A DNA stretch of 64,000 nt from Erythrobacter sp. SD-21 (GTDB lineage Bacteria; Pseudomonadota; Alphaproteobacteria; Sphingomonadales; Sphingomonadaceae). Of this stretch, positions 42,735 through 62,597 are shown piece by piece. Made by a program: the position numbers and the translations under genes. The number at the start of each line of letters is the position of its first letter. Positions within the stretch are counted from its first letter, which is position 1. The notes below the pieces were generated by a model that worked only from the letters and a program-made list of their open reading frames with translations, was not told the DNA's origin and ran no database searches. The stretch covers positions 1 through 64,000 of the forward strand of contig NZ_ABCG01000007.1 in assembly GCF_000181515.1 (NCBI RefSeq), given 5' to 3'.

Positions 42735-42940
42735 TGTGCGGCCTGAAACTCGGCTTCCCGCAGATCCGATCTGCCCAATAGGGACCGCGTCCTCAATGAT
42801 TGGAGGGCTTGAGTTAGACCGTTGTGTCGGCACTCCACCTGCAACTGAAACGGCCCGACGGTTGGCCCAATCTCGCGAAATCAATCATCTCTGAAACCCG
42901 TAGCCACTCCAGATTCATTGGTCGGTCAGGAGGCTTAGAT

Positions 42941-44281
42941 ATGGACTATGATCTGGCAGTAATCGGGACCGGAACAGCGGCGATGGTATGCGCGATGCGT
43001 GTAGCGAAAGCCGGTAAAAGCGTTGCGGTTATCGATGAGAAACCCTTTGGTGGGACTTGCGCACTCAGAGGTTGTGACCCCAAAAAAATGTTAGTGGCCG
43101 GTGTGGAAGTGATCGACGCGCAGCAACGGATGGCTCCCCACGGAGTTGCAGGAGAAGCCCGAATAGACTGGCCCGAACTTATCGATTTCAAGCGCAGCTT
43201 CACTGATCCGGTGCCGGAAAAGCATGAGCAGCGATACAAAGAGGCTGGCATCGCCACGTTGCATGGCACCGCAAGCTTTTCCGGCTCCAATCGGCTGCGC
43301 GTTGGCGAGCGAGAATTGACCGCCAGCAATTTTCTCATCGCCACGGGGGCCAAGCCAAGGCGTCTCGACATTCCGGGCGAAGAACACCTCGTCGATAACG
43401 AGGACTTCCTCTCGCTGGCGGTCTTACCAAAGCGAATTGTCCTTGTCGGCGGCGGCTACATCGCGGCCGAGTTCGCCCATATCGCTGCCCGCGCAGGGGC
43501 AAAGGTTACCGTGGTGCAGCGTGGGCCCCGAATGTTGACCGGCTTCGAGCCGGAGCTGGTGGACTGGCTGATGGAAGCCTTCGACCGGATCGGAGTTTGT
43601 GTGGAGACCGATTTGGACGTGACTGCGATAGATCAGCGAGGTGACGACTATGTCGTTCACGCCGAAGGTGACGGCAGGGCAATGCAATTCGATGCCGATC
43701 TCGTCGTTCATGCTGCAGGGCGGGTTCCTGCCCTCGATCAACTCGATCTCAAGGCAGCGGGAATAGCTACCGAGAATGGCAGGCTTAGCCTGAACGACTT
43801 CCTGCAAAGCGAAAGCAATACGGCAGTCTATGCGGCAGGCGATGCTGCTTCCAACGGGCCGCCGCTTACCCCGGTATCGAGCCACGATGCGAAGGTGGTT
43901 GCGGCCAACCTTATCGAGGGCAATCACAAGAAGCCCGACTACATCGGGGTGCCAAGCGTCGCTTTCACGCTTCCTCCCCTCGCTCGCGTAGGGTTGAGCG
44001 AAGAGGAGGCGAAAAAGGCGGGCCGAAGCTTTGAGGTTAAGTGCGGTCGCGCCTCGGATTGGTATACCGCAAGACGGGTCGACGAACCCGTTTATGGCTA
44101 CAAGACATTGGTCGAAGGCGATTCGGGTAAAATCCTCGGCGCCCATCTTGTCGGGCCGCATGCGGAAGAGGTGATCAACATCTTCGGCCTGGCGATCCGG
44201 CATGGGCTGACGGTGAAGGATCTTAAGACTACCATGTTCGCATATCCGACGGGCGCATCGGACATCGGCTATATGCTCTAG
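42941..44281 (+). CDS. FAD-dependent pyridine nucleotide-disulfide oxidoreductase (MerA-like)
   Basis: A 446-residue flavoprotein of the glutathione reductase/mercuric reductase fold. The FAD-binding GTGTAA loop follows the N-terminal strand, the redox-active pair is Cys40/Cys45 in GGTCALRGCDPKK, and the NAD(P)H loop is VGGGYIAAEFAH (about 168). It lacks both the N-terminal MerP-like domain and the C-terminal vicinal Cys pair of true MerA, so Hg(II) reduction is doubtful. TCAGGAGGC precedes the ATG. It converges on and overlaps by 4 bases a MerR-type gene, which ties it to the metal module. Confidence 0.86.
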   Translation: MDYDLAVIGTGTAAMVCAMRVAKAGKSVAVIDEKPFGGTCALRGCDPKKMLVAGVEVIDAQQRMAPHGVAGEARIDWPELIDFKRSFTDPVPEKHEQRYKEAGIATLHGTASFSGSNRLRVGERELTASNFLIATGAKPRRLDIPGEEHLVDNEDFLSLAVLPKRIVLVGGGYIAAEFAHIAARAGAKVTVVQRGPRMLTGFEPELVDWLMEAFDRIGVCVETDLDVTAIDQRGDDYVVHAEGDGRAMQFDADLVVHAAGRVPALDQLDLKAAGIATENGRLSLNDFLQSESNTAVYAAGDAASNGPPLTPVSSHDAKVVAANLIEGNHKKPDYIGVPSVAFTLPPLARVGLSEEEAKKAGRSFEVKCGRASDWYTARRVDEPVYGYKTLVEGDSGKILGAHLVGPHAEEVINIFGLAIRHGLTVKDLKTTMFAYPTGASDIGYML

Positions 44282-44682
44282 CGGACTGGCTCCTCCAGCA
44301 TATCGATCACTGCACAGTCGCTCACATGCGAACCGGAACATCGGTCGACGGTGGAGGCCAGCAGCTCCTCGAGCCGCTTGAGGTCTTTTATCTTCCGGCG
44401 CACGTCTTCGAGGTGGTGCACCGCGATATCGCGCACTTCGTCACAACAAGCGTCTTCCGGGCCGCCCATATCGAGCAGCGCGCGAACTTCTTGGGGTGAG
44501 AATCCCAATTCTCGTGCTCGCTTGATGAACTTGAGCGATCGCAGATGCCTGTCGCCGAACACCCTGTGTCCGCCTTCGGTCCGCCCAGATGTTTCAAGCA
44601 AGCCGACCTTCTCGAAGTAGCGGATGGTTTCGATATGCACCCCGGTTTTTCGAGCGAGTTCGCCGATCGACCAATTTGCCAT
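44278..44682 (-). CDS. MerR-family metal-responsive regulator
   Basis: A 134-residue MerR-type activator. The HTH domain (WSIGELARKTGVHIETIRYFEKVGLL) is followed by a dimerisation helix and metal-binding Cys residues: Cys79/Cys80, Cys115 and Cys123 (CSGSHVSDC). These correspond roughly to the MerR Cys82, 117 and 126 set, suggesting Hg(II) or a related soft metal. The ATG at 44682 follows AAGGAAA. It is divergent from the MerT-like gene and would act on the 19-bp-spacer promoter at 44694-44724. Confidence 0.9.
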   Translation of the reverse strand: MANWSIGELARKTGVHIETIRYFEKVGLLETSGRTEGGHRVFGDRHLRSLKFIKRARELGFSPQEVRALLDMGGPEDACCDEVRDIAVHHLEDVRRKIKDLKRLEELLASTVDRCSGSHVSDCAVIDMLEEPVR

Positions 44683-44693
44683 GTCGAATTTCC

Positions 44694-44724
44694 TTGATCC
44701 TGTAGTAGCTACAGGTGGCAATAG
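44694..44724 (+). promoter_or_regulatory. MerR-type promoter/operator
   Basis: A -35 TTGATC (44694-44699) and a -10 like CAATAG (44719-44724) are separated by 19 bases, the over-long spacer typical of MerR-activated promoters. The spacer carries a perfect dyad CCTGTAG-TAG-CTACAGG (44699-44715). It drives the MerT-like gene. Confidence 0.82.
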
Positions 44725-44748
44725 GCCATGGATCAACGGAGTTCAAAC

Positions 44749-45144
44749 GTGACCGACCGAGTTTTTGATGAAATTGAAGCGGCGCAACCGGGCGAGCGCG
44801 TTCTCGCTGTGAGCAGTGCCTTCACCGGTCTGGCCGCATTGATTTCGGGCGCGGCCTGCTGCGTTTTGCCTTTGGCACTGGCAGCCTTCGGAATCGGGTC
44901 GGGGGCTTTAGGCTTTCTCGTCCCCTACCATTGGCCGCTGACCATCGCCGCCCTTATCATCCTCACGCTCGCCTGGGTGTTTCACTTACGAATATCGCGC
45001 AGCTGCGCGATGGATAATTGCGAAGCCTCATCGCGGATCAAAACGACTAGGATCGTCCTGATTGCTGCGACGGTTGTTATCTTGATTTCGGCCTCATGGG
45101 AATTGTTCGAACAACCGCTGATGCGGTGGATTGGAGGCACCTGA
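44749..45144 (+). CDS. merT: MerT-like mercuric ion transporter
   Basis: A 131-residue inner-membrane protein with three membrane helices. The first helix carries the vicinal Cys pair (SGAACCVLP, Cys37/Cys38) and the cytoplasmic loop a second pair (Cys86 and Cys91 in SCAMDNC), the layout of MerT. The GTG start at 44749 follows GGAG at 7 bases; an upstream ATG at 44728 would lie at the expected transcription start of the MerR-type promoter and is rejected. It overlaps the next gene (TGATG). No merP or true merA is present. Confidence 0.78.
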   Translation: MTDRVFDEIEAAQPGERVLAVSSAFTGLAALISGAACCVLPLALAAFGIGSGALGFLVPYHWPLTIAALIILTLAWVFHLRISRSCAMDNCEASSRIKTTRIVLIAATVVILISASWELFEQPLMRWIGGT

Positions 45145-45365
45145 TGCAGATCTGTTCGACCATTACCTGTCCCGAGTGCGGTCGGTCCACGACAGAGAGC
45201 ATGCCGACAAATGCGTGCTGGTTTTTCTACACCTGTCCGCACTGCCAAGTACGCTTGAAACCGCTTGAGGGCGATTGTTGCGTGTTCTGCTCGTTTGGTG
45301 ATGTACCATGCCCGCCGATCCAAGAGGCCCGAGAAGAGGGGCGCGAATCTTCCTGTTGCGGATAG
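45144..45365 (+). CDS. GDCCVxC-domain protein
   Basis: A 73-residue Cys-rich protein with two CxxC pairs (Cys9/Cys12 and Cys31/Cys34), the diagnostic GDCCVFC motif (43-49) and a further Cys in DVPCPPIQ. The family occurs beside mercury-transport genes, and some members are selenoproteins; here all positions are Cys codons. GGAGG lies just upstream, and the start overlaps the MerT-like stop. A metal-carrying or thiol-exchange role is inferred. Confidence 0.85.
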   Translation: MQICSTITCPECGRSTTESMPTNACWFFYTCPHCQVRLKPLEGDCCVFCSFGDVPCPPIQEAREEGRESSCCG

Positions 45366-45386
45366 CAAAGCCGATATTGTGTACCG

Positions 45387-45836
45387 TTACCGTTCAATTC
45401 GGTGGGCTACGGAGCGCGATGCCAGACCAAGCGCGATGAGAGGGACAACGATCCACATTACGATCGGCACTATGCCGATACCGAGAAGGGTGGGCATTCT
45501 CGCAGAATATCTCCACCCCCAAGCTGCGCCCGTTGCGAAGTGCTCCACCACCAGCGTGATGACCAATCCTGTCACAAGGAAGGCGATGACCGGCTTTCGG
45601 TTACGGCTACTTAGCCAATGGCGATCGTTCACGGTCCATGATGCAACGAAATAGGCAAATACCATAATGCCCGCGTCACCGAGTGAAGCGAGGCTGCAAT
45701 TGATGGTTGTTTCCCATGCTGAGAGACGGCCCATCGCATAGAACGGCATCTGCAGCATTTCCCAGAGGAACGCGATCAGGTAGCCGTGAATCGCCAGCCA
45801 GGTTTCGGGTCTATCGAGTTTCTTCACCGCTTTCAT
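45387..45836 (-). CDS. four-helix membrane protein of unknown function
   Basis: A 149-residue integral membrane protein with about four helices (AIHGYLIAFLWEML, LGDAGIMVFAYFVASW, PVIAFLVTGLVITLVV, IVPIVMWIVVPLIALG). It is the last gene of the long leftward metal operon, its ATG overlapping the stop of the copper ATPase (TGATG), so the two are made together. No family name is assigned. Confidence 0.75.
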   Translation of the reverse strand: MKAVKKLDRPETWLAIHGYLIAFLWEMLQMPFYAMGRLSAWETTINCSLASLGDAGIMVFAYFVASWTVNDRHWLSSRNRKPVIAFLVTGLVITLVVEHFATGAAWGWRYSARMPTLLGIGIVPIVMWIVVPLIALGLASRSVAHRIER

Positions 45837-48220
45837 CAGGCGGGCTGTTCTGCGACGCCGTCGCTGGTCGATAATCGCAGACCGCGCAGTCGCAGCGCAT
45901 TGGCAATCACCGAGACTGACGACAGGCTCATCGCTGCTGCCGCGATCATCGGGTTCAGCAATAGCCCGAAAGCCGGGAACAGCACCCCTGCGGCGACCGG
46001 GATGCCAAGCGTGTTGTAGGCAAAGGCGAAAAACAGGTTTTGCCGAATGTTGCGCATCGTCGCCCTTGACAGGACGATAGCTTGCACCACGCCGGTCAGA
46101 TCGCCGCGCACCAGCGTTACGCCGGCACTTTCGATCGCGACATCGGTGCCGGTTCCCATGGCAATACCGACATCGGCCGCTGCGAGCGCTGGGGCATCGT
46201 TGATACCGTCGCCTGCCATGGCGACCCGGCGTCCTTCGGATTTCAGCCTCTCGACCTCGCGGTGCTTGTCTTCGGGCGAGACGTTGGCGTGAACCTCGTC
46301 AATGCCCATTTCCTGCGCGACCGCTTCGGCAGTTCCGCGGCTGTCACCGGTCAGCATGACCACGCGAATGTCGCGCGCGTGCAAGGCCGCGATGGCGTTT
46401 GCGCTGGTGGGTTTGATCGGGTCCGCCACGGCAATCAGACCAGCGGGCTTCCCGGCAAAAGCGACGAACATTACCGTCTGCCCCTTCGTCCGTCCGGCTT
46501 CGGCCGTACCCAGCCAGCTTTCGTCGCTGATCCCGACCCGGCGCATCATCTTTTCGTTCCCGATCGCGACCCGGCGACCGTTCACGTCCGCTTCGACACC
46601 CTCGCCCGTGGTCGAGGCAAGATCGGTCGCGTCTGCTGGCGACACCCCTCGTGACCGCGCGCCCTCGACTATCGCATGAGCCAAAGGATGCTCGCTACCC
46701 ATCTCGACCCCGGCGACCGCGGCAAGAAACTCGGCTTCGTCGATGCCCTCGACAGGATTCACCGCCACCAGATCGGGCTTGCCCATCGTCAAGGTGCCGG
46801 TCTTGTCGACTACCAGCGTATCAATCTTCTCCAGCGTCTCCAGTGCTTCGGCATTGCGGATCAGGATCCCGTGCTGCGCGCCCTTACCCGTCCCGGTCAT
46901 CACCGACATCGGCGTCGCAAGACCCAATGCGCACGGACACGCGATAATCAGGACCGCGATCGCGTTGACCAGTGCATAGGTTAGTGCGGGAGCGGGACCC
47001 CATATCGCCCAGACGGCAAATGTGACGACGGCGACCATCACCACGGCGGGCACGAACCAGCCTGCGACTTGATCGGCCAAACGCTGTATCGGTGCGCGGC
47101 TACGCTGCGCCTCGGCCACCATCTGGACGATTTTGGACAGCATGGTGTCCTTGCCCACGTTGGTCGCCCGCATGATGAACCCGCCGGTCTGGTTGACCGT
47201 CCCGCCGATCACCGTGTCGCCAGCGCCCTTCTTCACCGGAAGCGGTTCCCCGCTGACCATTGATTCGTCGATCGCGCTCGACCCTTCCTCGATCTCTCCA
47301 TCCACGGGAACCTTATCTCCGGGGCGAACACGCAGTCGGTCGCCGGACTCTAGCTCGTCGAGCGGCACCTCCCGCTCGTCACCGCTCCCGAAGATTTTCA
47401 CGGCTGACGGCGGTGCCAACTCGAGCAGAGCTCGCAATGCGCTCGACGTCGAACCGCGAGCTTTCAGTTCCAATACCTGGCCCAGCAAGACCAGCACGGT
47501 GATGACCGCTGCCGCTTCGTAATAAACACCCACCCGTCCGGAATGATCACGGAAGGCCGGCGGAAAGAGCTCGGGCATCGCGGTCGCCACCAGGCTGAAC
47601 AGATAAGCGATCCCGACGCCGATACCGATCAGTGTGAACATGTTGAGGTTGCGTGTTTTCAGCGACTCCCACGCGCGGACAAAGAATGGCCAGCCGCCCC
47701 ACAACACCACCGGAGTGGCGAGCACGAACTGCGCCCATTGCGCCCGGGCAGGTTCGATCAACTGATCGAAACTGAGCCATGGGATCATGTCGCTCATCGC
47801 ATAGACAAAGAGCGGCAGCGTAAGCAGCGCGCTCCACCAGAAGCGGCGGCGCATATCGACAAGCTCGGGATCGGGCCCGTCATCCAATGACACCGTTTCC
47901 GGTTCCAAAGCCATGCCACAGATCGGGCAGGAGCCCGGGCCAGTTTGGCGGATCTCGGGATGCATCGGACAGGTGTAGATCGTGCCCTCGGGCATATCCT
48001 CGACGACGTTCAGGTGCTCGCCCGACAAGTACAGTTCGGGATCTGCACGAAACTTATCGTGGCAGCGCGATGAGCAGAAATAATGCTGGGCATTGTCGTG
48101 CTCGGCGCGGTGCTCGGCGCCCTCGATCGTGACACTCATCCCGCAAACGGGATCGATCGCGACACCGTCGGCCCCGGGGGGCGCCTTGGCGGGCTCGCAG
48201 CAGTTTTCGTGATCAGTCAT
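45836..48220 (-). CDS. copA: Cu+/heavy-metal-exporting P1B-type ATPase with YHS domain
   Basis: A 794-residue heavy-metal efflux ATPase. Instead of HMA domains the N-terminus has a YHS domain ([24 protein letters not shown]) followed by a heavy-metal-binding module ([21 protein letters not shown]). Then come the membrane core with the CPC motif ([13 protein letters not shown]), the phosphorylation site [10 protein letters not shown] and the [10 protein letters not shown] hinge. CPC and the YHS/HMBD arrangement point to Cu+/Ag+ export. It overlaps the small membrane gene upstream by 8 bases. Confidence 0.94.
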
Positions 48221-51296: not shown

Positions 51297-52700
51297 TCAA
51301 TTTTCTGCTCCATTACTAGGAGGTTGGCTTTCATCGCCATTGGCGTCCCGATGGTCGTTCCCATCCGCTACGCGTTTACGGCGCAGGAAGAGGGCTTCGA
51401 GAGCGAAGACGGCGGCGATGAGGACCGCCGCGATCACCACGATGGCGGGGTCGGAATCGAGCTTCACCCCGGCAAAGGCGGCGAGGATGACGCCGTCGGC
51501 CGCGATTGCCGCAAGCAGGACCGAACCCTTGGCCCCGATCTCGTTGCGCAGATGGCGGTACACGCCCCAATGGACCAGGATGTCCATCACGAGATAGAAG
51601 AACGCCCCGAGCGAAGCGATCCGCGACAGGTCGAACAGCACCGCGAGCGTGCCCGCGATCACCACCGTATAGACGAGCAGGTGACCGCGGATCGGTCCCT
51701 TCATGCCGAAATGGCGGTGCGGGATCATCTTCATCTCGGTCAGCATGGTGAGCATGCGCGAGACCGCGAAAACGCTTGCGATCACGCCCGAAGTGGTCGC
51801 CGCAATCGCGATGACGATGGTGAACCAGAAGCCGAGCTGGCCCAGCGCCGGGCGGGCGGCGGCAGCGAGCGAATAATCGCGCGCCTCGACGATCTGGCCG
51901 ATCGTCAGGCTGGACCCGACCGCGAACGCGACGAGCAGGTAAGTGACGACGCAGATCGCGATCGAGATCATGATCGTGCGGCCCACATTGCGATGCGGAT
52001 CGACGATCTCTCCGCCGCTATTGGTGATCGTGGTAAAGCCCTTGAACGCCAGGATCGAGAACGCGACCGACGCCAGGAACGCGCCGCCGCTCGTAATATT
52101 TGCCGGCTCGGCAAACGCGCCGGAGAAAAATCCGCTCGCGGCAATGGCCGCCACAGCGAACAGCGCAATCCCGCCGATCTTGATCGCCGACATGATCAGT
52201 GAAAAGCCGCTGACCGACCGATTGCCGGCCTTGTTCACGATATAGGCGAAGACGATCAGCGCGAGCGCCAAGGCGGACAGCAGGAATGCGTTCTCCTCGA
52301 GACCGAACGGCCGCAATGCGTAAGTGGCGAAGGTTCGCGCGACAAGGCTTTCGTTGATGACCATCGAAAGCGCCATGAGCAGCGATGCCGACGCCGCGAC
52401 GACGCCGGGCCCATAGGCCTTCTGGAGGATCATCGCGATGCCGCCCGAAGACGGCCAGGCGTTAGACATCTTGATGTAGCTATAGGCGGCAAGCGAGGTG
52501 ACGAGCGCGCCCACGATAAACGAGAGCGGGAACAGCGGTCCGGCCAGTTCCGCAATTTGGCCGGTAAGAGCGAAAATCCCCGCGCCGATCATCACGCCCG
52601 TGCCCATGGCGACACCGCCGGCGAGACTGATGGTCCCCCTGCCAGCGGTCTCGAGCTCGTGATCCATCGTATTATCGGCGCCGTGATTCATCGCAGTCAT
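51297..52700 (-). CDS. APC-family amino acid permease
   Basis: A 467-residue membrane transporter with about twelve helices and the APC pattern GTGVMIGAGIFALTG in helix 1. A His/Asp-rich hydrophilic C-terminus (GNDHRDANGDESQP) is notable. ATG 52700 is chosen because GGAGA lies just upstream and it overlaps the DUF411 stop (ATGA). The substrate is not predictable; placement in the metal operon may point to amino-acid supply or metal-complex uptake. Confidence 0.88.
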   Translation of the reverse strand: MTAMNHGADNTMDHELETAGRGTISLAGGVAMGTGVMIGAGIFALTGQIAELAGPLFPLSFIVGALVTSLAAYSYIKMSNAWPSSGGIAMILQKAYGPGVVAASASLLMALSMVINESLVARTFATYALRPFGLEENAFLLSALALALIVFAYIVNKAGNRSVSGFSLIMSAIKIGGIALFAVAAIAASGFFSGAFAEPANITSGGAFLASVAFSILAFKGFTTITNSGGEIVDPHRNVGRTIMISIAICVVTYLLVAFAVGSSLTIGQIVEARDYSLAAAARPALGQLGFWFTIVIAIAATTSGVIASVFAVSRMLTMLTEMKMIPHRHFGMKGPIRGHLLVYTVVIAGTLAVLFDLSRIASLGAFFYLVMDILVHWGVYRHLRNEIGAKGSVLLAAIAADGVILAAFAGVKLDSDPAIVVIAAVLIAAVFALEALFLRRKRVADGNDHRDANGDESQPPSNGAEN

Positions 52701-53302
52701 GTTTTCTCCGATCCGCGATGCATAAGAGGTCTGTCGGCCCCCCACTCAACCGGTGCGCCGCGGACATTCGCGCGCCGAGAGTGGTGAGCCGGTTGAATGG
52801 CAATCACTCCATCGGCCTCAGCTCTACCCCGGTAGCTCGCGAAGACGCTGTCGCCTGCCGGGCCGAAGGCGATGACTTGATACGGTTGCGCCCGATCGCC
52901 AGCTTCCATGCCGGGGGAACCCAGAGGCATCCCTGCAACGGCCAAGCCGGTTACGCCCTTGGGCCGTTCCTTGAGCAGGCGGGCAATCTCGCGCGCAGGC
53001 ACATGGCCCTCGATCACATAGCCTTCCACCTGCATGGTATGGCAGGAGAGCAGGGTATCGGGCACGCCAGCCTCGGCCTTCACAGCGGCCATGGGACGGT
53101 CCTCGCGCACCGTGACCGCGTTATCGAGGCCGCTACGGACATGCTTGGCCCATTCCTCGCAGCATCCGCACTGCGGATCGCGAAACATCACATAAGGGCT
53201 TGCCTGTGCGGCGCTCGTGCAGGCCGCCAGGAGGATCATCGCGAATGTCGTGAATGCCCCGCGCGTCCGGCGAGTGGGGTGGCTGGAATGTCCGAATTCC
53301 AT
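52697..53302 (-). CDS. DUF411 periplasmic metal-binding protein
   Basis: A 201-residue exported protein with a signal peptide (cleavage near AQASPY) and the DUF411 motif MFRDPQCGCCEEWAKHV, a thioredoxin-like CxCC metal site. The later block VPDTLLSCHTMQVEGYVIEGHVPA is also diagnostic. DUF411 proteins bind copper and are common in copper islands. ATG 53302 follows AGGAA; its 3' end overlaps the permease start. Confidence 0.93.
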   Translation of the reverse strand: MEFGHSSHPTRRTRGAFTTFAMILLAACTSAAQASPYVMFRDPQCGCCEEWAKHVRSGLDNAVTVREDRPMAAVKAEAGVPDTLLSCHTMQVEGYVIEGHVPAREIARLLKERPKGVTGLAVAGMPLGSPGMEAGDRAQPYQVIAFGPAGDSVFASYRGRAEADGVIAIQPAHHSRRANVRGAPVEWGADRPLMHRGSEKT

Positions 53303-53313
53303 TTTCAATGTTC

Positions 53314-53706
53314 CTAAATCTCATCGATGTCGTGGTCGGCCATGGAGTCCATGTCATGGCCTGCATGCGGGTCGGAGGTTTCAGCGACTTCGCGCTTCGT
53401 CGGCGTGGGTGCCGGCGCCGAACCGGTTGCCTGCATCCGCGCGGGTCGTGCTGTGCCAGGGCCGGCCGGCACGCGCTTTGGAGCCGAGTTGCCGGCGACC
53501 GGTGCGCTATCGACACTGGCTACGGCCGGACTATCGGCTGCGGCTTCGCTGGGCGACGACGCGGTCAGCGGCGCTGCGGTGTCGAGCGTAGTGGAATCAT
53601 CGATTTCGGCCCTCGGTTCAACCGGTTGATCGCACGCCGCCACACCCGCCAGGGCGGTCCCGAGCAACAGCGCTCCAGCAATTTTCATCGGTTTGAATCG
53701 GTGCAT
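53314..53706 (-). CDS. Pro/Ala-rich lipoprotein
   Basis: A 130-residue protein with a signal sequence and a lipobox-like LAGVAAC, then a Pro/Ala/Ser-rich low-complexity stretch, ending in an acidic His/Asp/Met segment (HAGHDMDSMADHD) that could bind metal. ATG 53706 follows AAGGAAG at 5 bases. It begins inside the stop region of the preceding DUF2231 gene. No fold is recognised. Confidence 0.68.
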   Translation of the reverse strand: MHRFKPMKIAGALLLGTALAGVAACDQPVEPRAEIDDSTTLDTAAPLTASSPSEAAADSPAVASVDSAPVAGNSAPKRVPAGPGTARPARMQATGSAPAPTPTKREVAETSDPHAGHDMDSMADHDIDEI

Positions 53707-53717
53707 CAGGTCTTCCT

Positions 53718-54359
53718 TCATATCAACGAGAAGCCGAGGTGATCCGGCCCGTGAGCGAGTTCCCCGCCGAGGAATCCCTGAAGCAGAATCAGCGCGGCCA
53801 TGGAGAGAAGTCCGGTACGCAGGAGGGTTCTTCCATCCCGCGGCTTGGAGGCAAGTAGAGCAAGCGCGAGGCCCAGCGCAGTGATCAGCATCCCGTTCCA
53901 GCGGTGAAGCTGCATGACCGTATCACCGCCGAACCAGAGGCCGGTATGAATCCAGCCGAACAAGGCCGCGATTACGGCACCGCCCGCGCCGCCGTAGATC
54001 AGTACGCGAACGGCCGGTTCGATACCGGCACCCCGTCCAGTCATAATGAACAATTCCGCCAGCGCCGCCATCAGGAACAAGGCAATGGGGAAATGTATCG
54101 TTGCGGGGTGCAGCTTCTTGACGAAGGCGAGACCTCCCGCATTTGCAGCGCTTTCATGGCCCCCCGACGCTTCGTCGTGCCCTTCCGCAGCATGAGTCGA
54201 CGCGGCCTGCGCCTCGCCCGCACTGGATGCGTCATGGGTTGGATCGGAAGAGGCGGCAGCGCTGGCAGCGGTATCATGTCCCTTCTCGCCATGCGCATAG
54301 GCCGGGCCGACCAACAGAAAACCTGCGCACACGAGCATCAGGAGATGGATGGGTTTCAT
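53718..54359 (-). CDS. DUF2231 membrane protein with His-rich periplasmic segment
   Basis: A 213-residue protein, first gene of the leftward metal operon. A signal peptide (AYAHGEKGH) is followed by a His/Asp/Glu-rich linker (residues ~24-75) and a DUF2231 core of four membrane helices beginning KKLHPATIHFPIALFL. The His-rich linker suggests metal binding at the periplasmic face. It is divergent from the anti-sigma/sensor/sigma operon; the 152-base gap should hold both promoters. Confidence 0.85.
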   Translation of the reverse strand: MKPIHLLMLVCAGFLLVGPAYAHGEKGHDTAASAAASSDPTHDASSAGEAQAASTHAAEGHDEASGGHESAANAGGLAFVKKLHPATIHFPIALFLMAALAELFIMTGRGAGIEPAVRVLIYGGAGGAVIAALFGWIHTGLWFGGDTVMQLHRWNGMLITALGLALALLASKPRDGRTLLRTGLLSMAALILLQGFLGGELAHGPDHLGFSLI

Positions 54360-54511
54360 AATGGCGAATGCTCTTTCACGGTGGGTTCACGAGACCTATG
54401 CTCCTTGATACGCACCGCAAGACGCCTCCCCTCACGAAAATTTATGAGGGCAATGGGCAGACCGGACGTATTGTGAGAACGGCCACCTACTTCAAGGATC
54501 GACCCCTAGCG
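54360..54511. promoter_or_regulatory. divergent control region of the metal island
   Basis: The gap between the leftward (DUF2231...copper ATPase) and rightward (anti-sigma/sensor/sigma/copAB) units. A 6-bp inverted repeat CCCTCA (54429-54434) and TGAGGG (54445-54450) flanks an A/T core. No ECF -35/-10 can be assigned with confidence. Confidence 0.45.
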
Positions 54512-54790
54512 ATGGAACATCAATTGGACCCCATTCTGGACGTGCTTGCCCACGAGACTCCGGTCGGCGTGTCCGGTGGTTTCATGGAAGGCGTGTGGGA
54601 GCGGGTCGGCGATATCAACGCGCGCCGGGAACGCACTTTGCGAAGCGCCTTGTTCGCAGGACTTTTCGCCGTCGGGCTGGGCGCAGGCGCGATCACCGTC
54701 CAAGCGCCTGCCTACGCGAAGGAGCCGACCTATCCGTTGATAAGCGATGTCCGGCTTTCTCCCGCCGCGCTGCTGCATGTCGCTCCATGA
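54512..54790 (+). CDS. CnrY-like small transmembrane anti-sigma factor
   Basis: A 92-residue protein with a cytoplasmic N-terminus (MEHQLDPILDVLAHETP), one membrane helix near residues 46-66 (LFAGLFAVGLGAGAITVQA) and a short periplasmic tail. Size, topology and position just before a CnrX-type sensor and an ECF sigma factor match CnrY/NccY anti-sigma factors. Sequence similarity alone would not identify it. The ribosome site is weak and distant. Confidence 0.62.
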   Translation: MEHQLDPILDVLAHETPVGVSGGFMEGVWERVGDINARRERTLRSALFAGLFAVGLGAGAITVQAPAYAKEPTYPLISDVRLSPAALLHVAP

Positions 54791-55227
54791 AAGACCGGAA
54801 ACTGCAATTAATGGTTGCGGTTCTGCTTGCGGTATTGGCGGGATTCCTTGGAGCCGTTGCCGCCGAACGCTGGTTTGCGCCCACCCAGCCGGGTGGTCTC
54901 CACGAGTTTGTGCACGAACAGCTGGAACTCGATGCGCAGCAGGAAGACCGGCTCGACCGGCTCGAGGAACGCTATGCGATCGAGAACGCGCAACGCGAAC
55001 TGGCGGTGCGGCGCGCGAATGCGGACTTGGCGGCCGCGATCGACAACGAGCATGAATACGGCCCCGAGGTCAGCGCTGCCATCGACGGGGTCCATGCCAG
55101 CATGGGCGAATTGCAGAAGGCGACGGTTCGTCATGTCTTCGCGATGCGCAGCATTCTGAATGAAGACCAGCAGCGCGCATTCGATCAACAGGTCGCCCGG
55201 TCGCTGACCGGACCGCCGCCGCAATGA
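54787..55227 (+). CDS. CnrX-type periplasmic metal sensor
   Basis: A 146-residue membrane-anchored helical-hairpin sensor. A single N-terminal membrane helix (residues 7-27) exposes a CpxP/CnrX-like domain. His39, His43, Glu60, His116 and Met120 correspond one-to-one, with a constant offset of 3, to the CnrX ligands His42, His46, Glu63, His119 and Met123. This is strong evidence that it senses a divalent or soft metal and relays to the flanking anti-sigma. The ATG overlaps the anti-sigma stop. Confidence 0.88.
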   Translation: MKDRKLQLMVAVLLAVLAGFLGAVAAERWFAPTQPGGLHEFVHEQLELDAQQEDRLDRLEERYAIENAQRELAVRRANADLAAAIDNEHEYGPEVSAAIDGVHASMGELQKATVRHVFAMRSILNEDQQRAFDQQVARSLTGPPPQ

Positions 55228-55234
55228 CGCCGGA

Positions 55235-55798
55235 GTGCAGGAGCGGCACGACAGTCAGGAGCGGGAACTGGTTGCAAGGGTCGTGGCTGGGGACCGCCGC
55301 GCGTTCACCCAGCTTGTAGAGCCGCTCGTACCACGATTGCTCGCCACCGCGCTGCGCTTGCTGGGAACCCGCGACGAGGCGGAGGATGCGGTGCAGAATG
55401 CGTTGGCATCGGCATGGATCGCACGGAGCCGGATCGATCGATCACGGTCTTTCCTTCCGCTCCTCACCACGATTACGCTCAACAAATGCCGCGACAAATT
55501 GCGTCGGCGAAAGGCAGCCGACTTTCTTGGCTTCGGCAGGGCTTCGATGCCGGAGCTCGCATCCGATCCCGCGCCTTCGCCCGAGACCGAAGCCGTCGAC
55601 CGCCAGCTTCTCGAACAAACCCGTTCCGAAATCCGGCGCCTGCCCTTGCGGCTTCGCGAGGCCCTGATTCTCGTCGCCATCGATGGTCGAAGTCAAAGCG
55701 AGGCGGCGGAGCTGCTCGGGATTTCGGCCAAAGCGGTGGAGGCCTTGGTCTATCGGGCGCGCAAGATACTGAGAGAAAAATTGCCCAGCGGCGAGTGA
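55235..55798 (+). CDS. ECF sigma factor, CnrH-like
   Basis: An ECF sigma factor of 187 residues with region 2 (GTRDEAEDAVQNALASAWIAR) and region 4 (EALILVAIDGRSQSEAAELLGISAKAVEALVYRAR). Start is GTG 7 bases after the sensor stop, following CGGAG-like sequence. The order anti-sigma/sensor/sigma is that of cnrYXH, placing this as the output factor. Its target is likely the downstream copAB operon and perhaps the divergent unit. Confidence 0.86.
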   Translation: MQERHDSQERELVARVVAGDRRAFTQLVEPLVPRLLATALRLLGTRDEAEDAVQNALASAWIARSRIDRSRSFLPLLTTITLNKCRDKLRRRKAADFLGFGRASMPELASDPAPSPETEAVDRQLLEQTRSEIRRLPLRLREALILVAIDGRSQSEAAELLGISAKAVEALVYRARKILREKLPSGE

Positions 55799-55862
55799 AT
55801 TTGATGAGGGAAGCCGCGCCGGGCTGCGTAGGGTAAGGCAAACCCCGTTCACACAGGACATT

Positions 55863-57662
55863 ATGATGCAATCAATCAATCGGCGGAAATTCCTCGGCTC
55901 GAGTATCGCGGCGGGCGGTCTGCTGGGCGCCGGAGCCGCGATTCCTGCCTGGGCGCGCGGCGGCAATATGAATGGCGCGACGATTCGCCAGGGCTTCGAC
56001 GAAGTGTCCGGCCGGAACATCGATCTGACCATCGCCCGGGGCCCCGTTACAGTACAGGGTCGGCGCGGAATGGGAGTTGCCGTCAACGGCAGCGTGCCGG
56101 GGCCGCTGGTGCGGTTGAAGGAGGGCGCGGCCGTCAATCTCAACGTGCACAACGCGCTGGACGAAGACAGCTCGATCCATTGGCACGGACTGCTGGTTCC
56201 GTTTCAATTCGACGGCGTGCCCGGCGTCAGCTTCCCCGGGATCAAGCCGGGGCAGACTTTCACTTACGAAATGCCCGCGCTGCGGCAGGCTGGCACCTAT
56301 TGGTGGCATAGCCACTCGGGTTTGCAGGAGCAGGCCGGCCATTACGGCCCGATCATCGTCGATCCCGCCGGTCCCGATCCGGTGCAGGCCGATTACGACT
56401 ACGTCATGCTGCTGAGCGAATTCACGCCGATGCATCCCCACACCATCATGGCCAAACTGAAAAAGGGCGAAGCCTATTTCAATTATCAGCAACGCACGCT
56501 GACCGACGGCTATCCGTTGACCGGCGAGGAGCGGCGGATGTGGGCGGAAATGCGGATGATGCCGACCGACATTTCGGATGTATCTGGATCCACCTACACT
56601 TATCTAGCCAACGGACACGGCCCTAAGGAGGGGCTCGAATATCTGTTTGCGCGCGGCAAACGGGTTCGAATTCGCGTGATCAACGGCAGCGCAATGACGT
56701 TCTTCAATGTCCGCATCCCCGGAATGAAGTTCTGGGTGGTGGCGGCGGATGGCCTCAACGTAAGGCCGGTCGAGGTGGAAGAATTCCAGATCGGCACGGC
56801 AGAGACTTACGATATCGTGGTGGAGCCGACCGGCGAAGCGCACACAATCGTCGCAGAAAGCATGGATCGTTCGGGCATGGCACTCGCCACGCTTGCAAGC
56901 CGTCCGGGTGCGCGTGCGCCAGTGCCGGCCCTCCGCGATCCCCCGCTTTTGACCATGGCCGATATGGGCATGAACCATGGCGGCGGTGATATGGCCGGGA
57001 TGGATCCCGGTATGGATCACAGTGCGATGGGCCATGGGACCGAGCCGTCGGGCGAGATGTCCATGAGCGGCATGGATATGCGCGACACGTCGTTGCTCCC
57101 GCCCGATGTGAAGGTAGGCCCCGGTGTCGATATGGTCGCGATGAACCCGGTGGACCGGATGGGCGATCCAGGCATCGGTCTCGACAAGGTTCCGCACAAG
57201 GTTCTCACTTACAAGGATCTGGTCGCGCTCGAACCGAACGACGACCTGCGCACACCGTCGCGCCAGATGGAAATCCATCTAACCGGCAATATGGAACGCT
57301 ACATGTGGTCGTTCGACGGGAAGAAATTCTCGGCCGTCAGCGATGAACCGATCCGGTTCGCCTATAATGAACGCGTCCGCTTAAAACTGGTTAACGATAC
57401 CATGATGGCGCACCCCATCCATTTGCACGGCCATTTCTTCGAGCTCGTCAACGGCGCTCCTGCCGATCGCCAGCCACAAAAGCATACGGTCATCGTGCAG
57501 CCAGGCGGCTCTGCCCAGTTCGATTTGACTGCCGACGAGCCCGGCGATTGGGCGTTTCACTGCCACCTTCTCTACCACATGCATGCCGGAATGTTTCAGA
57601 TCGTGACCGTCGCCAATCGGGCCGGTCAGCCGGATGTGAAGCGCGTGGGAGAAAGCGGATGA
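55863..57662 (+). CDS. copA: multicopper oxidase, copper-resistance CopA (PcoA-like)
   Basis: A 599-residue periplasmic multicopper oxidase exported by Tat (NRRKFLGSS at residues 6-14). The four copper-binding motifs are present: SSIHWHGLL, TYWWHSHSGLQ, HPIHLHGHFFEL and HCHLLYHMHAGMFQIV. A Met/His-rich insert (GMNHGGGDMAGMDPGMDH) near residue 365 is typical of PcoA-type oxidases that bind Cu+. It detoxifies cuprous copper. Its stop overlaps copB (ATGA). Distinct from the P-type ATPase of the same name. Confidence 0.95.
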   Translation: MMQSINRRKFLGSSIAAGGLLGAGAAIPAWARGGNMNGATIRQGFDEVSGRNIDLTIARGPVTVQGRRGMGVAVNGSVPGPLVRLKEGAAVNLNVHNALDEDSSIHWHGLLVPFQFDGVPGVSFPGIKPGQTFTYEMPALRQAGTYWWHSHSGLQEQAGHYGPIIVDPAGPDPVQADYDYVMLLSEFTPMHPHTIMAKLKKGEAYFNYQQRTLTDGYPLTGEERRMWAEMRMMPTDISDVSGSTYTYLANGHGPKEGLEYLFARGKRVRIRVINGSAMTFFNVRIPGMKFWVVAADGLNVRPVEVEEFQIGTAETYDIVVEPTGEAHTIVAESMDRSGMALATLASRPGARAPVPALRDPPLLTMADMGMNHGGGDMAGMDPGMDHSAMGHGTEPSGEMSMSGMDMRDTSLLPPDVKVGPGVDMVAMNPVDRMGDPGIGLDKVPHKVLTYKDLVALEPNDDLRTPSRQMEIHLTGNMERYMWSFDGKKFSAVSDEPIRFAYNERVRLKLVNDTMMAHPIHLHGHFFELVNGAPADRQPQKHTVIVQPGGSAQFDLTADEPGDWAFHCHLLYHMHAGMFQIVTVANRAGQPDVKRVGESG

Positions 57663-58690
57663 AATATCTGATCGCCCTTATCCTCGCCTCAACGGCGACG
57701 CCCGCACTTGCCCAGCATCAGGGCCACTCCATGCCGACGACCCCGCCCGAACCACAGGCCGAGGGGCAGCCAGACGACATCGATGGCGCGGAAGCGGATG
57801 ATCAGGACCAGCCTTCCACAATGCTCATGGATCATTCGAAGATGGACCATTCCGGCATGGAAGAAGACCCATCTACCGCCGCACAGGACACCGGCGAAGC
57901 AATGGATCATGCCGCCATGGGTCACGGGCCTATGGAAATGGATATCCCGTCGGTGCCGCCGCCCGCTGCAGCCGGTTCTGGTCCCCCGCGAGCCGCAGAC
58001 GCGATCTGGGGTGCAGATGCGATGCGCGAGAGCCGCGAGCAATTGCGCGATGAGCAGGGCGGCCAGAACTTCTTCTGGTTCCAGGGCGACCGCGTGGAAT
58101 ATCGCGCCCGCGACGGTGCCGATGGCTATCTGTTCGACGTGCAGGGCTATTATGGCGGCGATCTCGACAAATTCTGGTTCAAATCGGAAGGGGAAGGCAG
58201 CTTCGGCGAAGAGATCGAGAGTGCCGAAATCCAGGCACTTTACAGTCGTGCAATCGCGCCCTTTTTCGATCTGCAAGCGGGGGTCCGCCAAGATCTGGCT
58301 CCGATCGACCGCACGTATGCGGTGGTCGGCATCCAGGGGCTCGCACCCTATTTATTCGAAGTGGATGCAGCCGCATTCCTGTCGGACCGAGGCGATTTGA
58401 CAGCCCGCGTCGAGGTCGAACTCGATCAGAGGATTACGCAGCGCCTGATCGTCCAACCGCGTGTCGAAGCGTCTTTTTCTGCACAGGATGTGCCTGAACT
58501 GGGCATCGGTGCCGGACTGGACTCGGTCGAAGCCGGTCTGCGCCTGCGGTATGAGCTCGCGCGCGAGTTCGCGCCGTATATCGGGATCGATCAGGAATGG
58601 AAAATCGGCCAAAGCGTCGACTTTGCGCGAGCCGCGGGGGAAGACCCGAGCGTGACGAATTACGTCGTCGGCATACGGTTCTGGTTTTAA
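57659..58690 (+). CDS. copB: copper-resistance outer-membrane protein CopB (PcoB-like)
   Basis: A 343-residue protein with a signal peptide, a Met/His/Asp-rich N-terminal linker (DHSKMDHSGMEED) and a C-terminal beta-barrel domain (DKFWFKSEGEGSFG, RAIAPFFDLQAGVRQD, YVVGIRFWF). It is the usual partner of CopA and sits in the outer membrane. The start overlaps the copA stop, so they are translationally coupled. Confidence 0.95.
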   Translation: MKYLIALILASTATPALAQHQGHSMPTTPPEPQAEGQPDDIDGAEADDQDQPSTMLMDHSKMDHSGMEEDPSTAAQDTGEAMDHAAMGHGPMEMDIPSVPPPAAAGSGPPRAADAIWGADAMRESREQLRDEQGGQNFFWFQGDRVEYRARDGADGYLFDVQGYYGGDLDKFWFKSEGEGSFGEEIESAEIQALYSRAIAPFFDLQAGVRQDLAPIDRTYAVVGIQGLAPYLFEVDAAAFLSDRGDLTARVEVELDQRITQRLIVQPRVEASFSAQDVPELGIGAGLDSVEAGLRLRYELAREFAPYIGIDQEWKIGQSVDFARAAGEDPSVTNYVVGIRFWF

Positions 58691-58706: not shown

Positions 58707-59270
58707 ATGCATACTACCATTACACGCGGGGCTCTCGCCCTCGTTCTGGCTGCGGTTGCCACACCGGCGATTGCGCAGAGCATGGAAGATCATGCTGCGC
58801 ATGCAGAGAAAGCTGCAACGCAGCCCATGGAGCAACCCGCTCAATGTAAGAAGCATGCTGAGCACATGGCGGCTATGAACGATGATGTCGCCGGTGCAGA
58901 AGCGGTGCTGACCGCTTATCGCAATGCCCTGACTGGTCGCGATGCCGATGCGATGACGGCCCTGTTTGCAGAAGAATCCTTCGTTTACGAAAACGGGAAG
59001 GATGAAGGCAGTTTCACGAATTACATGGAACACCATCTCGGGCCCGAACTCGATGCGATCACCAGTTTTTCCTTTGGTGAGCCGACCATGACGATCACCC
59101 GGATGGGGCACCTGGCCTACGGACGCGAAACCTATACCTACCGGATCGAACTGGCGGATGGGCGCGTGATCGACCGGGAAGGCGTGGCGACATCGGTGCT
59201 CACGCACGACGCCAATGGCTGGAAGATCGTGCAATACCATTCATCGTCCCGTCCTCCCCGCAACCAATAA
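58707..59270 (+). CDS. periplasmic NTF2-like (DUF4440/SnoaL) protein
   Basis: A 187-residue exported protein: signal peptide to PAIAQS (about 24), a His/Met-rich linker with ECHA-like metal residues (MEDHAAHAEKAA), and an NTF2-like domain (AVLTAYRNALTGRDADAMTALFAEESF). The fold binds small ligands or catalyses simple reactions; here it is probably an accessory to CopAB. AAGGAAGGGAAA precedes the ATG. Confidence 0.82.
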   Translation: MHTTITRGALALVLAAVATPAIAQSMEDHAAHAEKAATQPMEQPAQCKKHAEHMAAMNDDVAGAEAVLTAYRNALTGRDADAMTALFAEESFVYENGKDEGSFTNYMEHHLGPELDAITSFSFGEPTMTITRMGHLAYGRETYTYRIELADGRVIDREGVATSVLTHDANGWKIVQYHSSSRPPRNQ

Positions 59271-59276
59271 GACCTC

Positions 59277-60014
59277 ATGGCGTCGGTTCCAGCTCTACGA
59301 AAGCCGTCACGCAAGCTTCGGCTGCACATATTCGGTAGCAAGCTGCACAAGTGGCTCGCGCTGTTTGTCGGCGTCCAGGTGCTCTTGTGGATGGGAACCG
59401 GCGCGATCATGTCCTTTCTCAAGATCGAGCAGGTACGGTCCGAGCACGTCATATCGCGCGAAGCCGAAACACTCGATCCTGAGTTTCCGGCACCGCGATG
59501 GCTGGTAGATCGACAGGGCGTCGTTGCTGTCACAACCAAATCCGTAGCTGGCCGTCCCCTCGTCCAGATCGAGCGTAGCGATGGCTCGATGACGCTTCAT
59601 GAGACCGAGACCGGAACGAAAGTTTTTCCCCTGCCGGTTGCTGATGCCCGAGCCATCGCTTTACGCGCCTGGACCGGACCCGAGACTTCGATCGCCAGTG
59701 TGAAGCTAATCGAGACCCCGATAGGAACAGAGTTCCGCGGTCCATTTCCGGCGTGGCAAATCACCTTCTCCGATCCAGACGGGACGAGGCTCTACCTTAA
59801 TGCCTCAAGCGGCGCGATTCTCGGCGCAAGAAGCGATACCTGGCGCTTCTTCGACTTCGTCTGGGGCTTGCACATCATGGACTGGACCCAGCGCGACCGG
59901 ATCAACAGCTGGTGGCTGCTGCTTTTCGGAATCGGTGGAACGGTCATCGCGGTTTCGGGCTTTATCCTCTTGGCGAACCGGTTCCCGAAACTGCGCCGCA
60001 GAAAGGCCCGGTGA
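59277..60014 (+). CDS. PepSY-domain transmembrane protein
   Basis: A 245-residue protein with two membrane helices (LHKWLALFVGVQVLLWMGTG near 23-43 and LLLFGIGGTVIAVSGFILLANRF at the end), a periplasmic PepSY-like segment between them, and the motif WGLHIMDW near 192. PepSY-TM proteins accompany iron- and copper-handling systems and may act in electron transfer. It starts 6 bases after the preceding stop. Confidence 0.82.
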   Translation: MASVPALRKPSRKLRLHIFGSKLHKWLALFVGVQVLLWMGTGAIMSFLKIEQVRSEHVISREAETLDPEFPAPRWLVDRQGVVAVTTKSVAGRPLVQIERSDGSMTLHETETGTKVFPLPVADARAIALRAWTGPETSIASVKLIETPIGTEFRGPFPAWQITFSDPDGTRLYLNASSGAILGARSDTWRFFDFVWGLHIMDWTQRDRINSWWLLLFGIGGTVIAVSGFILLANRFPKLRRRKAR

Positions 60015-60059
60015 TCTACCCAAGGAAGTATCCGATGATCGCACTAATGATATAAAGGC

Positions 60060-60097
60060 GCAATGTCATCCCTGCCAAGCAATGTCATCCCTGCCAA
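60060..60097. repeat. 19-base tandem duplication
   Basis: Two perfect adjacent copies of a 19-base unit beginning GCAATGTCATCCC (60060-60078 and 60079-60097) lie just upstream of the glucose dehydrogenase frame. It looks like recent slippage. Confidence 0.85.
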
Positions 60098-60141
60098 GAA
60101 GTATCGGTAAAGTTTGCCAAGATCTGACAGCGAGATCCGTC

Positions 60142-62597
60142 ATGAGCAGTTCTGAACAAACCGCACCCTCATCCAAAGTCTCGATCCTACCACGGATAGT
60201 CGCGATTCTGATCGGGCTCATCGGTGCAACACTGTTTGCCGGTGGCATCTGGCTCGCAATCCTTGGCGGCTCGCTTTACTATGGGCTGACCGGCGCGGCG
60301 CTGCTTGCTTCCGCCTATTTCATCTTTCGCGGGAAAGCCTTGGGCGCGTGGATTTACGTCAGCGTCTATATGGTGACCGTGCCTTGGGCATTATGGGAGA
60401 GCGGCAATGATCCGTGGGCGCTCGTGCCGCGACTTGTTGGTCCGACCGTTCTCCTCGCTCTGGTTTCGCCCCGCCTTTATCGGCCAACAAGATGGCCAGT
60501 TGCACTTGCAGGGGCTGGGGGAGCGGTGGTGTTCCTTGCGGTTGCACTCTGGGTTGCATCGGCATCGCGCCCCGATCCGGTGAGGGGGGAACTCCCGATA
60601 CCCCGGGCAGGAATAGAGGTCGAGGATGTGGGCGGTGACTGGCCAGCATGGGGAGGAACCCATTCAGGTCAGCGTTATTCGCAGTTGGATCAGATTACTC
60701 CGGCCAATGTCGGCGGACTGGAGCGCGCATGGATCGCACATACCGGGGATCTGCCCCAAGGTGCGGGTGAGGGCAAATACGCCCCGAGACGACCCCGCTT
60801 AAAATCGGCGACAGTTTGTATCTGTGCTCGGCGATGAATATTCTCATCGCGCTCGACGCGCAAACCGGCGCGGAAATCTGGCGCCACGATCCACAAGTCT
60901 CCACCGCCGCCATCCCCTATTCGGCCTCCTGCCGCGGCGTGACCGCCTACAACCGCCCGCTGGACAGCGGCACACAGCTTTCCGGAGGCACCCAAGGCTC
61001 TTCTTCCCAGAATCGAGGCGCGCCGGTCGTACCTTCGGGAACTGCAGCGAATTGCGCGATGCGCATCATCGAAGGGACGCTCGATGGCCGTCTCATCGCC
61101 GTCGATGCCGAAACCGGCCGCCCCTGTGCCGACTTTGGCGTCAACGGCGAGGTCGATATCAAAGAGGGCATGGGCCAGACATATCCAGGCATGGTGGCGA
61201 TCACGGCTCCTCCGGTGATCGTGCGCGGCAACATCGTGACAGGCCATCAAGTTCTTGACGGGCAGCGGAACAGCGCCCCGTCAGGCGTAATCCAAGCGTT
61301 TGACGCCGTCACCGGTGAGCGTGCATGGGCATGGGATATGGGCCGTCCGGGAGAAAATGGCCCACCCGGACCCGGCGAACAATTTACGCGCGGAACGCCC
61401 AATATGTGGACGACGGCCTCGACGGACGAGGAACTGGGGCTCGTCTACCTACCCATGGGCAACAGCGCGGTCGACTACTGGAGTTCGGATCGCAGTCCAC
61501 AGGAAAACGAATTTTCGACGGCGCTCGTGGCGCTGGACGGCGAGACAGGCGAGCCACGCTGGCGTTTCCAGACCGTATACAAGGATGTCTGGGACTACGA
61601 CCTCGGGAGCCAGGCAACGCTTGTCGATCTGCCGGGCGGAACACCGGCCATCATTCTCCCATCGAAGCAGGGCGAGATCTACATTCTCGACCGACGTACC
61701 GGTCGACCACTGCACACCATGATCGAACGCGCCGTGCCGCAAAGTGGTGTGGAGCCCGCCGAGCGCACCGCCACGCAACCCTATTCGGGCTTTGCGACGC
61801 TGCGCAGGCCCTCGCTCGAAGAGCGCGACATGTGGGGCATGACGCCGATCGACCAGATGATCTGCCGCATCCAGTATCGGCAGTCGGCCTATGACGGCTA
61901 CTATACGCCTCCCACGTCAGATCGCCGGTGGATCCAGTATCCCGGTTACAATGGCGGATCCGACTGGGGATCGGTGGCGATCGATCCGCGCCGCGGAGTG
62001 ATTTACGCCAACTATAACGACATGCCCAACCACAACCGCCTCGTCCCTCGCGCAGTGGCGAACGAAAAGGGCTGGGAGCCGCGCGGCCCGCAGGGCAATC
62101 AAGGTGGCGGTGGTTCTGAAGGTGAGGGCTCGCCTCAGACCGGTACGCCGTTCGCCATCGACGTCAACGCTGGCTGGCGGCTCGGGCTGACCGGCCTTCT
62201 GTGCAAAGAGCCACCTTATGGCGGCATTCGTGCGATCGATATGAATAGCGGCAAGACGCTATGGGACCGGCCCTTCGGTTCGGCGCGCGCGAACGGTCCT
62301 TGGGCCCTCGCCCTTGGCATTCCGTTCACGATCGGCACGCCGAACAATGGTGGCGGTGTCGTAACAGCGGGAGGACTGCTGTTCATTGCAGCGACGACCG
62401 ACAATCTGATTCGCGCAATCGATGTCGAAACAGGCGAAACGGTCTGGTCCGACGTCCTGCCGGGCGGCGGGCAGGCCAACGTAATGACCTACTCTCAGGG
62501 CGGCCGCCAGTATGTCGTGATTATGGCAGGCGGGCATCATTTCATGAAGACACCTGTCAGCGATGCAATAGTGGCCTACGCGCTACCCCGGAACTAG
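60142..62597 (+). pseudogene. gcd: membrane PQQ-dependent glucose dehydrogenase, frameshifted
   Basis: Quinoprotein glucose dehydrogenase that oxidises glucose to gluconolactone in the periplasm and passes electrons to ubiquinone. The first part (five N-terminal helices, then DWPAWGGTHSGQRYSQLDQIT) is in one frame to KYAP (about 60785), and the remainder (PETTPLKIGDSLYLCSAMN... to VAYALPRN) is in another. The join lies in a run of four C (60782-60785) where five would restore GCC CCC GAG. Catalytic and PQQ motifs (WTTASTDEELGLVYLP, DVWDYDLGSQ) are otherwise intact. A sequencing error in the C run is as likely as a real inactivating mutation. Confidence 0.85.

Follow-up and report, generated by a model that had tools for sequence, protein, structure and literature searches.

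A CnrYXH-type trio ahead of copA-copB

The window analysed here, meaning the whole stretch of 64,000 nucleotides at positions 1 to 64,000 of contig NZ_ABCG01000007.1 of Erythrobacter sp. SD-21, carries three consecutive small genes, Y, X and H, directly followed by the copper resistance genes copA and copB (Table 1). We propose that this trio is a transmembrane switch of the CnrYXH type, which senses periplasmic copper and turns on copper detoxification through promoters read by H, a reading to which we give a probability of roughly three in four. The Y stop codon overlaps the X start, and 64 bases lie between the H stop and copA. The original prediction had described a small anti-sigma-like protein, a sensor and an extracytoplasmic function (ECF) sigma factor, with copA-copB within 65 bases of the sigma gene; gene calls and family matches show this description to be correct, down to the measured gap. 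The interval of the locus should, however, be extended leftward, since two back-to-back promoters (54409-54470) lie directly upstream of Y.

Assignment of H to the ECF sigma factors, also proposed earlier, holds: the protein has sigma-70 regions 2 and 4 and, in a comparison restricted to solved structures, its best PDB match is CnrH (4cxf, E 2.9e-22), followed by SigW (1.5e-14). Y has no match among the Pfam and NCBIfam families. What it has in common with CnrY is the place of its gene, its length (92 amino acids versus 95), a single hydrophobic stretch and, towards its C-terminus, the motif [AS]PxxLL. This motif stands near the C-terminus of 118 of 124 distinct Y proteins and reads SPFGLL in CnrY and SPSNLL in a Y of genome G887 that is linked to a resistance-nodulation-division (RND) pump; the tail that carries it is a candidate for the part of Y gripped by X.

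The sensor X matches PF13801 (Metal_resist, E 6.2e-13), and PF07813 (LTXXQ) is the second Pfam family to exceed its cut-off. When its periplasmic domain was compared with the CnrX and NccX chains of the PDB (phmmer, E 1.3e-16 to 3.4e-15), the alignment to CnrX was ungapped. It bears out the prediction that five CnrX-type ligands lie in the sensor at a constant offset, since H39, H43, E60, H116 and M120 fall on CnrX H42, H46, E63, H119 and M123, with an offset of 3 throughout. An AlphaFold model of X (mean predicted local distance difference test score, pLDDT, 88) retrieved nine CnrX/NccX entries from the PDB, at Z 11.3-12.8, 1.6-2.3 Å and 32-38% identity, and the next rows at Z 9.5 or less; rows outside the CnrX/NccX and CpxP/Spy group were set aside as generic helical matches. 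Thinning of the X proteins at 80% identity left 107 rows, in which the residues that correspond to CnrX H46, E63 and H119 are invariant (105/105), and those that correspond to H42 and M123 are each substituted in 3 of 105. M123 is, by one account, required for CnrX signalling (PMC7689651).

Table 1. Coordinates of the features of the locus, in positions of the window
Feature	Positions	Strand	Remarks
Divergent genes: DUF2231 membrane protein, unassigned protein, DUF411 protein	52697-54359	-	Behind the reverse promoter
Putative ECF-type promoter towards the DUF2231 gene	54409-54433	-	Exact match; back to back with the Y promoter
Putative ECF-type promoter of the Y-X-H operon	54446-54470	+	Exact GAGGG-N16-CGTA match
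Y	54512-54790	+	Putative membrane anti-sigma factor, 92 amino acids, one hydrophobic stretch, C-terminal tail SPAALLHV
X	54787-55227	+	CnrX-type periplasmic metal sensor, 146 amino acids, N-terminal hydrophobic helix
Codons of X H39 and H43	54901-54915	+	Aligned with CnrX H42 and H46
Codon of X E60	54964-54966	+	Aligned with CnrX E63
Codons of X H103 and M106	55093-55104	+	Strictly conserved throughout the copper-type clade; CnrX and NccX have Glu and Ala
Codons of X H116 and M120	55132-55146	+	Aligned with CnrX H119 and M123
H	55235-55798	+	CnrH-like ECF sigma factor, GTG start, 187 amino acids, sigma-70 regions 2 and 4
Putative ECF-type promoter of copA	55806-55830	+	Exact match, directly after the H stop
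copA	55863-57662	+	Copper resistance multicopper oxidase, TIGR01480 at 752 bits, above the cut-off of 479
copB	57659-58690	+	Copper resistance protein B, PF05275 at 284 bits
SnoaL-like and PepSY-TM proteins after copB	58707-60014	+	Same position in several relatives

A promoter element conserved among relatives

The relatives of the locus were gathered from 199 genomes sampled from the family, 81 of which (the own genome included) have X, and from a scan of named genomes that gave 79 loci in Erythrobacter, Qipengyuania, Sphingomonas, Novosphingobium, Sphingobium and others, taken from the best 80 of 179 confirmed stretches. Together they make 173 loci (L032-L204; 94 from the family sample and the 79 named ones, with overlap of species), and in 152 of these copA follows H. 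Shorter copies of the same places (L001-L031, one of which, G135, has no longer counterpart in the set) were left out, and some weak or fragmentary family matches, such as G138 and G057:C2:210567, are outside the set.

We then counted, upstream of these genes, a motif whose consensus before Y reads TGAGGG-N15-GCGTA, each distinct X being used once and called starts of Y and H being required (125 systems; the Y starts were called by script and a few are possibly wrong). In its strict form, GAGGG-N-CGTA, the element precedes Y in 100 of 125 systems, is present as a reverse copy in 102 of 125 and occupies the gap between H and copA in 90 of 108, all three places being filled in 57 of 108. The spacer is almost always 16 bases (98/100 before Y, 102/102 in the reverse copy, 89/90 before copA). 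A relaxed form, which admits A as well as G at the first position and spacers of 15-17, raises these counts to 115/125, 110/125, 104/108 before an adjacent copA and 89/108 for all three; of its 117 matches before Y, 115 have the 16-base spacer. The relaxed element occurs in 78 of 5988 control pieces of 260 bases, drawn at random from these loci. CGTA lies a median of 29 bases from the Y start. Seven of the loci examined have copA elsewhere in the stretch (L060, L069, L070, L080, L088, L124 and L237). In two of them the element immediately precedes copA: L070, whose copA is divergent from the trio, and L069, in which a DUF305 gene is inserted after H. In L088 it precedes a small gene that itself stands just in front of copA. 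Four loci, L045, L069, L079 and L085, have it before a divergent copC.

A near-identical motif, AGGGG-N16-CGTA, lies upstream of cnrY and cnrC, its CGTA ending 32 and 33 bases from the respective start codons; GAGGG proper occurs upstream of cnrC with a spacer of 17. Transcription of cnrY and cnrC, under CnrH control, is reported to begin 24 and 25 bases ahead of the respective gene (PMC9045368), which would place CGTA at about -12 to -9, and make the element a -35/-10 pair, if the gene starts agree. This match is the best external sign that a CnrH-like sigma factor may read the element.

As a control, we used copA genes from family genomes that lack X (60 of the 118 sampled genomes without X gave 40 copA matches, 30 of which were taken). 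The strict element is absent from the 1.4 kb upstream of all of them (0/30), and so is the relaxed one within 150 bases (0/30), so that a chance neighbourhood of the trio and copA was rejected. These copA genes have instead, in 16 of 30 cases (e.g., L300 and L308), a CsoR-type palindrome, TACCC-N-GGGTA, within 170 bases, which occurs in none of 126 YXH loci in the 170 bases after H. Two of the small proteins encoded divergently beside them were scanned and both are CsoR-type repressors (PF02583). Within one family, regulators of two unrelated kinds thus seem, from these upstream sequences, to control the copper operon.

The genome of strain SD-21 has a second copA (C15:214841, L353), 68% identical to the first; it is followed by a copB-like gene and has a divergent DUF305-like gene beside it, and neither the element nor the palindrome was found there, the element being sought in 1.5 kb upstream. 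Elsewhere in the same genome (L351, G000:C17:95924) a CsoR-type repressor gene has a TACCC-GGGTA palindrome just before it. This single genome may hence possess three separate copper circuits. It contains 16 exact matches of the element, against 11 of the reversed pattern; besides the three at the locus, most lie inside plausible reading frames by a crude check of open reading frames (ORFs), and a wider H regulon was set aside as no convincing target emerged.

Outside the family, X occurs in another alphaproteobacterial family (41 of 99 genomes), probably Caulobacteraceae to judge from Caulobacter plasmid records, and thinly elsewhere (8 of 385 genomes of the class and 17 of 398 of the phylum, the own genome included), in searches that used the X of the window or its relatives as query and are biased to their own type. 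When CnrX itself was the query, the 398 phylum genomes gave 25 places, of which 21 are of the copper type, 2 are RND-linked, with cnrC-like genes, and 2 are too weak to place. By these sequence searches the copper-linked form prevails and is no local oddity. The original prediction spoke of a rewired use of the sensor; this is not established, because it presumes a direction of change, and the copper-linked form is the more frequent of the two.

Plasmids carry the system as well: among 79 plasmid records with an X relative, six are from Cupriavidus and the rest mostly from sphingomonads. Of five such records whose genes were read, Croceicoccus marinus pCME4A9II and Sphingobium SYK-6 pSLPG have Y-X-H-copA-copB; Caulobacter henricii pCB4 has Y-X-H amid copper genes, copA not being behind H. 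One record of an uncultured member of the Sphingomonadaceae (CANLQG010000002.1; L126, L127) contains two Y-X-H-copA loci, whose X proteins are identical and 83% identical to that of the window. Another (L192, QDFQ01000015.1), titled Arthrobacter sp. TPD3018, has a Y identical to that of many Sphingomonas records, which suggests a mislabelled or mixed assembly.

Two further regions of the window were noted. At 59800-62597, a membrane-bound pyrroloquinoline quinone (PQQ)-dependent dehydrogenase appears to be split: one ORF, 59800-60837, overlaps another, 60816-62597, which is in a different frame and, being the one that was scanned, covers profile positions 216-783 of 783. This looks like a frameshift or a sequence error. 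Further to the left, 42824-48220 encodes a mercuric-reductase-like flavoprotein, a MerR/CueR-like regulator and a copper P-type ATPase; the last reaches the TIGR01511 cut-off, and the curated cut-offs of MerA, MerR and CueR are missed. The copper genes may be part of a larger metal-resistance island that includes this region.

An extra His/Met pair in the sensor

The X proteins linked to copper genes share a further feature, which, like the promoters, was absent from the original prediction. At the positions of CnrX E106 and A109, 167 of 172 distinct X proteins have His and Met (H103 and M106 in the window), and the remaining 5 have Glu and Ala, every one of these with cnrC next to it. The 167 have copA adjacent in 138 cases and another copA-D gene, a P-type ATPase or cueR in 22, that is to say copper-type neighbours within the stretch for 160; of the seven with none of these, four (L234, L262, L267 and L276) come from short stretches in which the flank is no longer than 1.5 kb. 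In the set thinned to 80% identity, the equivalents of H103 and M106 are invariant (105/105). In the tree of these 107 rows, only two of which are RND-linked, one long branch parts the two types; because of this single split, the association between residues and cargo counts as one evolutionary event and not as many. Genome G887 holds both types: the Glu/Ala form precedes cnrC-like genes, and the His/Met forms either precede copA or lie close to cueR and a P-type ATPase. In the same genome (L241, G887:C1:1-7500), two X genes lie head-to-head at a contig end, about 650 bases apart; an H gene is behind one of them and the other points to the contig end.

The set of X proteins leaves out as duplicates L210, L211, L218, L219 and L221-L223. 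L219 is in reality not a duplicate; it is a copper-type X with copA, copC and copD, and stands outside the counts. The weak matches L215-L217 and L343-L344 are in no type count, their X alignment being unusable or their residues different (Ala/Arg in L215 and Glu/Asp in L343 at the two positions).

H103 and M106 share a helix with H116 and M120, from which 10 to 17 residues separate them, and would therefore make a separate site. They may bind copper, but they could contact Y instead of metal. It is conceivable, if somewhat doubtful, that copper-type X has here a second, soft-metal site of the His-Met, Cu(I)-like kind, made of H103 and M106 and perhaps of E71 or of residues across the dimer, which would make the sensor specific for copper, the nickel-type site having been relaxed in part, as the few substitutions at the H42 and M123 equivalents may indicate; a periplasmic copper sensor acting via a sigma factor would then be a third route to copA control, beside CopRS and CsoR-type repression. 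E71 is suggested by a manual pairing of helices, and Glu stands at this position in just 93 of 105 rows.

Proposed mode of action, alternatives and significance

By analogy with CnrYXH, H would at rest be tethered to the inner membrane by Y, an anti-sigma factor with one membrane helix, which the periplasmic domain of X would in turn keep in place. Metal would bind X at H39, H43, E60, H116 and M120, probably aided in this clade by H103 and M106, and the change in metal-bound X would, again as in CnrYXH, make Y release H. Free H would then guide RNA polymerase to the GAGGG-N16-CGTA promoters, with three outputs predicted in the window, i.e., more Y-X-H, copA-copB directly, and the divergent genes from DUF2231 to DUF411. 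The wiring of H to copA is well supported by the conserved dedicated promoter, which also gives strong sequence support to the predicted drive of a multicopper oxidase operon by the sigma factor; copper as the signal is suggested by the neighbouring genes and by chemistry.

Several points weigh against this copper switch. Y falls outside the curated CnrY/NccY family, since model NF033790, which matches CnrY at 139 bits and a Cupriavidus USMAA2-4 relative at 132 bits, does not match Y, and homology to CnrY was not supported by profile comparison (hhalign probability 1.2%); its anti-sigma role hence derives from place, size and the short C-terminal motif. In two of the loci with a displaced copA, L060 and L237, the element was not seen before copA, L124 being unclear and the copA start of L080 being cut off. 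Moreover, the three matches in the window are, on their own, within chance (1.59 expected with spacers of 15-19; 21 of 100 shuffles reach three), and single-window statistics, not significant in 64 kb, were dropped as proof, so that the case for the promoter is built on comparison across relatives. These chance-level matches also speak for a reading in which the trio is just a neighbour, with copA under read-through or another regulator rather than H; this we hold to be very improbable, given the dedicated promoter in 104 of 108 relatives against none of the X-less copA genes, and the CsoR-type palindrome confined, in this comparison, to the latter.

The canonical ligands of X, all five of which most copper-type sensors keep, would by themselves predict nickel and cobalt, and the sensor might still answer these or several divalent metals as CnrX does, copAB then responding to metals in general. 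Such a response, to nickel or to several metals, is kept in play by a sphingomonad, Sphingobium sp. ba1, in which CopA, CopB and CopC are reported as up-regulated in nickel (PMC5557971; its copAB may or may not be linked to a YXH trio). We consider it unlikely all the same, because the neighbours are mainly copper genes, because the RND-linked relatives differ at H103 and M106, and because G887 has both types of X, each with the matching cargo. X could also be an envelope-stress monitor of the CpxP/Spy kind, on which copper would act only through protein damage; its fold resembles CpxP and Spy (Z about 7.6-8.7), and the LTXXQ family of the second Pfam match points the same way. The higher scores of CnrX and NccX, together with the invariance of three CnrX ligands, make this scarcely credible.

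Among known systems, the copper-linked trio is closest to CnrYXH of Cupriavidus metallidurans (nickel/cobalt, pMOL28), with which it shares the gene order, the overlap of Y and X, the fold and five ligands of X, the nearest relative of H among solved structures and a near-identical -35/-10 pair ahead of Y and of the first target gene downstream of H. It differs in its target, copA-copB here and the RND pump cnrCBA there, in the His and Met that replace E106 and A109 of CnrX, in a Y outside the CnrY/NccY model and in its extra divergent promoter. NccYXH (nickel-cobalt-cadmium) resembles it in the fold of NccX (4clv) and in the same five aligned ligands, but NccX has Glu and Ala at the positions of H103 and M106, and the target of NccYXH is an RND pump. 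CopRS/PcoRS and CsoR-type control act on the same kind of genes, through a two-component system or a cytoplasmic repressor and not through a membrane-held sigma factor.

CorE of Myxococcus xanthus is likewise an ECF sigma factor for copper genes, a multicopper oxidase included, but is described as governed by its own Cys-rich C-terminal extension, with no anti-sigma factor (PMC10141476). H has no such extension, its region 4 match ending at residue 178 of 187, and contains one Cys. In Acinetobacter baumannii, PMC12153292 describes a copper-responsive ECF sigma factor, SigAb, with AabA modelled as binding it in the manner of CnrY and AabB modelled as a helical periplasmic partner of AabA. By this description, SigAb-AabA-AabB may be a distant three-part analogue, which differs by its sigma-first gene order and by having its copA/copB and efflux genes as indirect targets (PMC12153292). 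The available parts of the accounts of copper-linked ECF sigma factors (CorE, CarQ-like factors, Caulobacter SigF and SigAb) name no CnrX-type sensor. The open literature searched, subscription papers being outside its scope, gave no description of a copper-linked CnrYXH, a weak negative; tentatively, the trio is an apparently undescribed copper-operon variant of CnrYXH.

If the copper switch is real, a trio that is now annotated generically (as a 'hypothetical protein', a 'periplasmic heavy metal sensor' and an RNA polymerase sigma factor in three annotated alphaproteobacterial records) would gain a name, and its promoter and sensor would be a ready pair for copper biosensors. Two positions of X would predict nickel/cobalt or copper wiring from sequence, and a two-residue swap would put to a direct test how periplasmic sensors acquired their metal specificity. 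Many sphingomonads and their relatives would then run copA-copB by the release of a sigma factor from the membrane, rather than by CopRS or a CsoR-type repressor.

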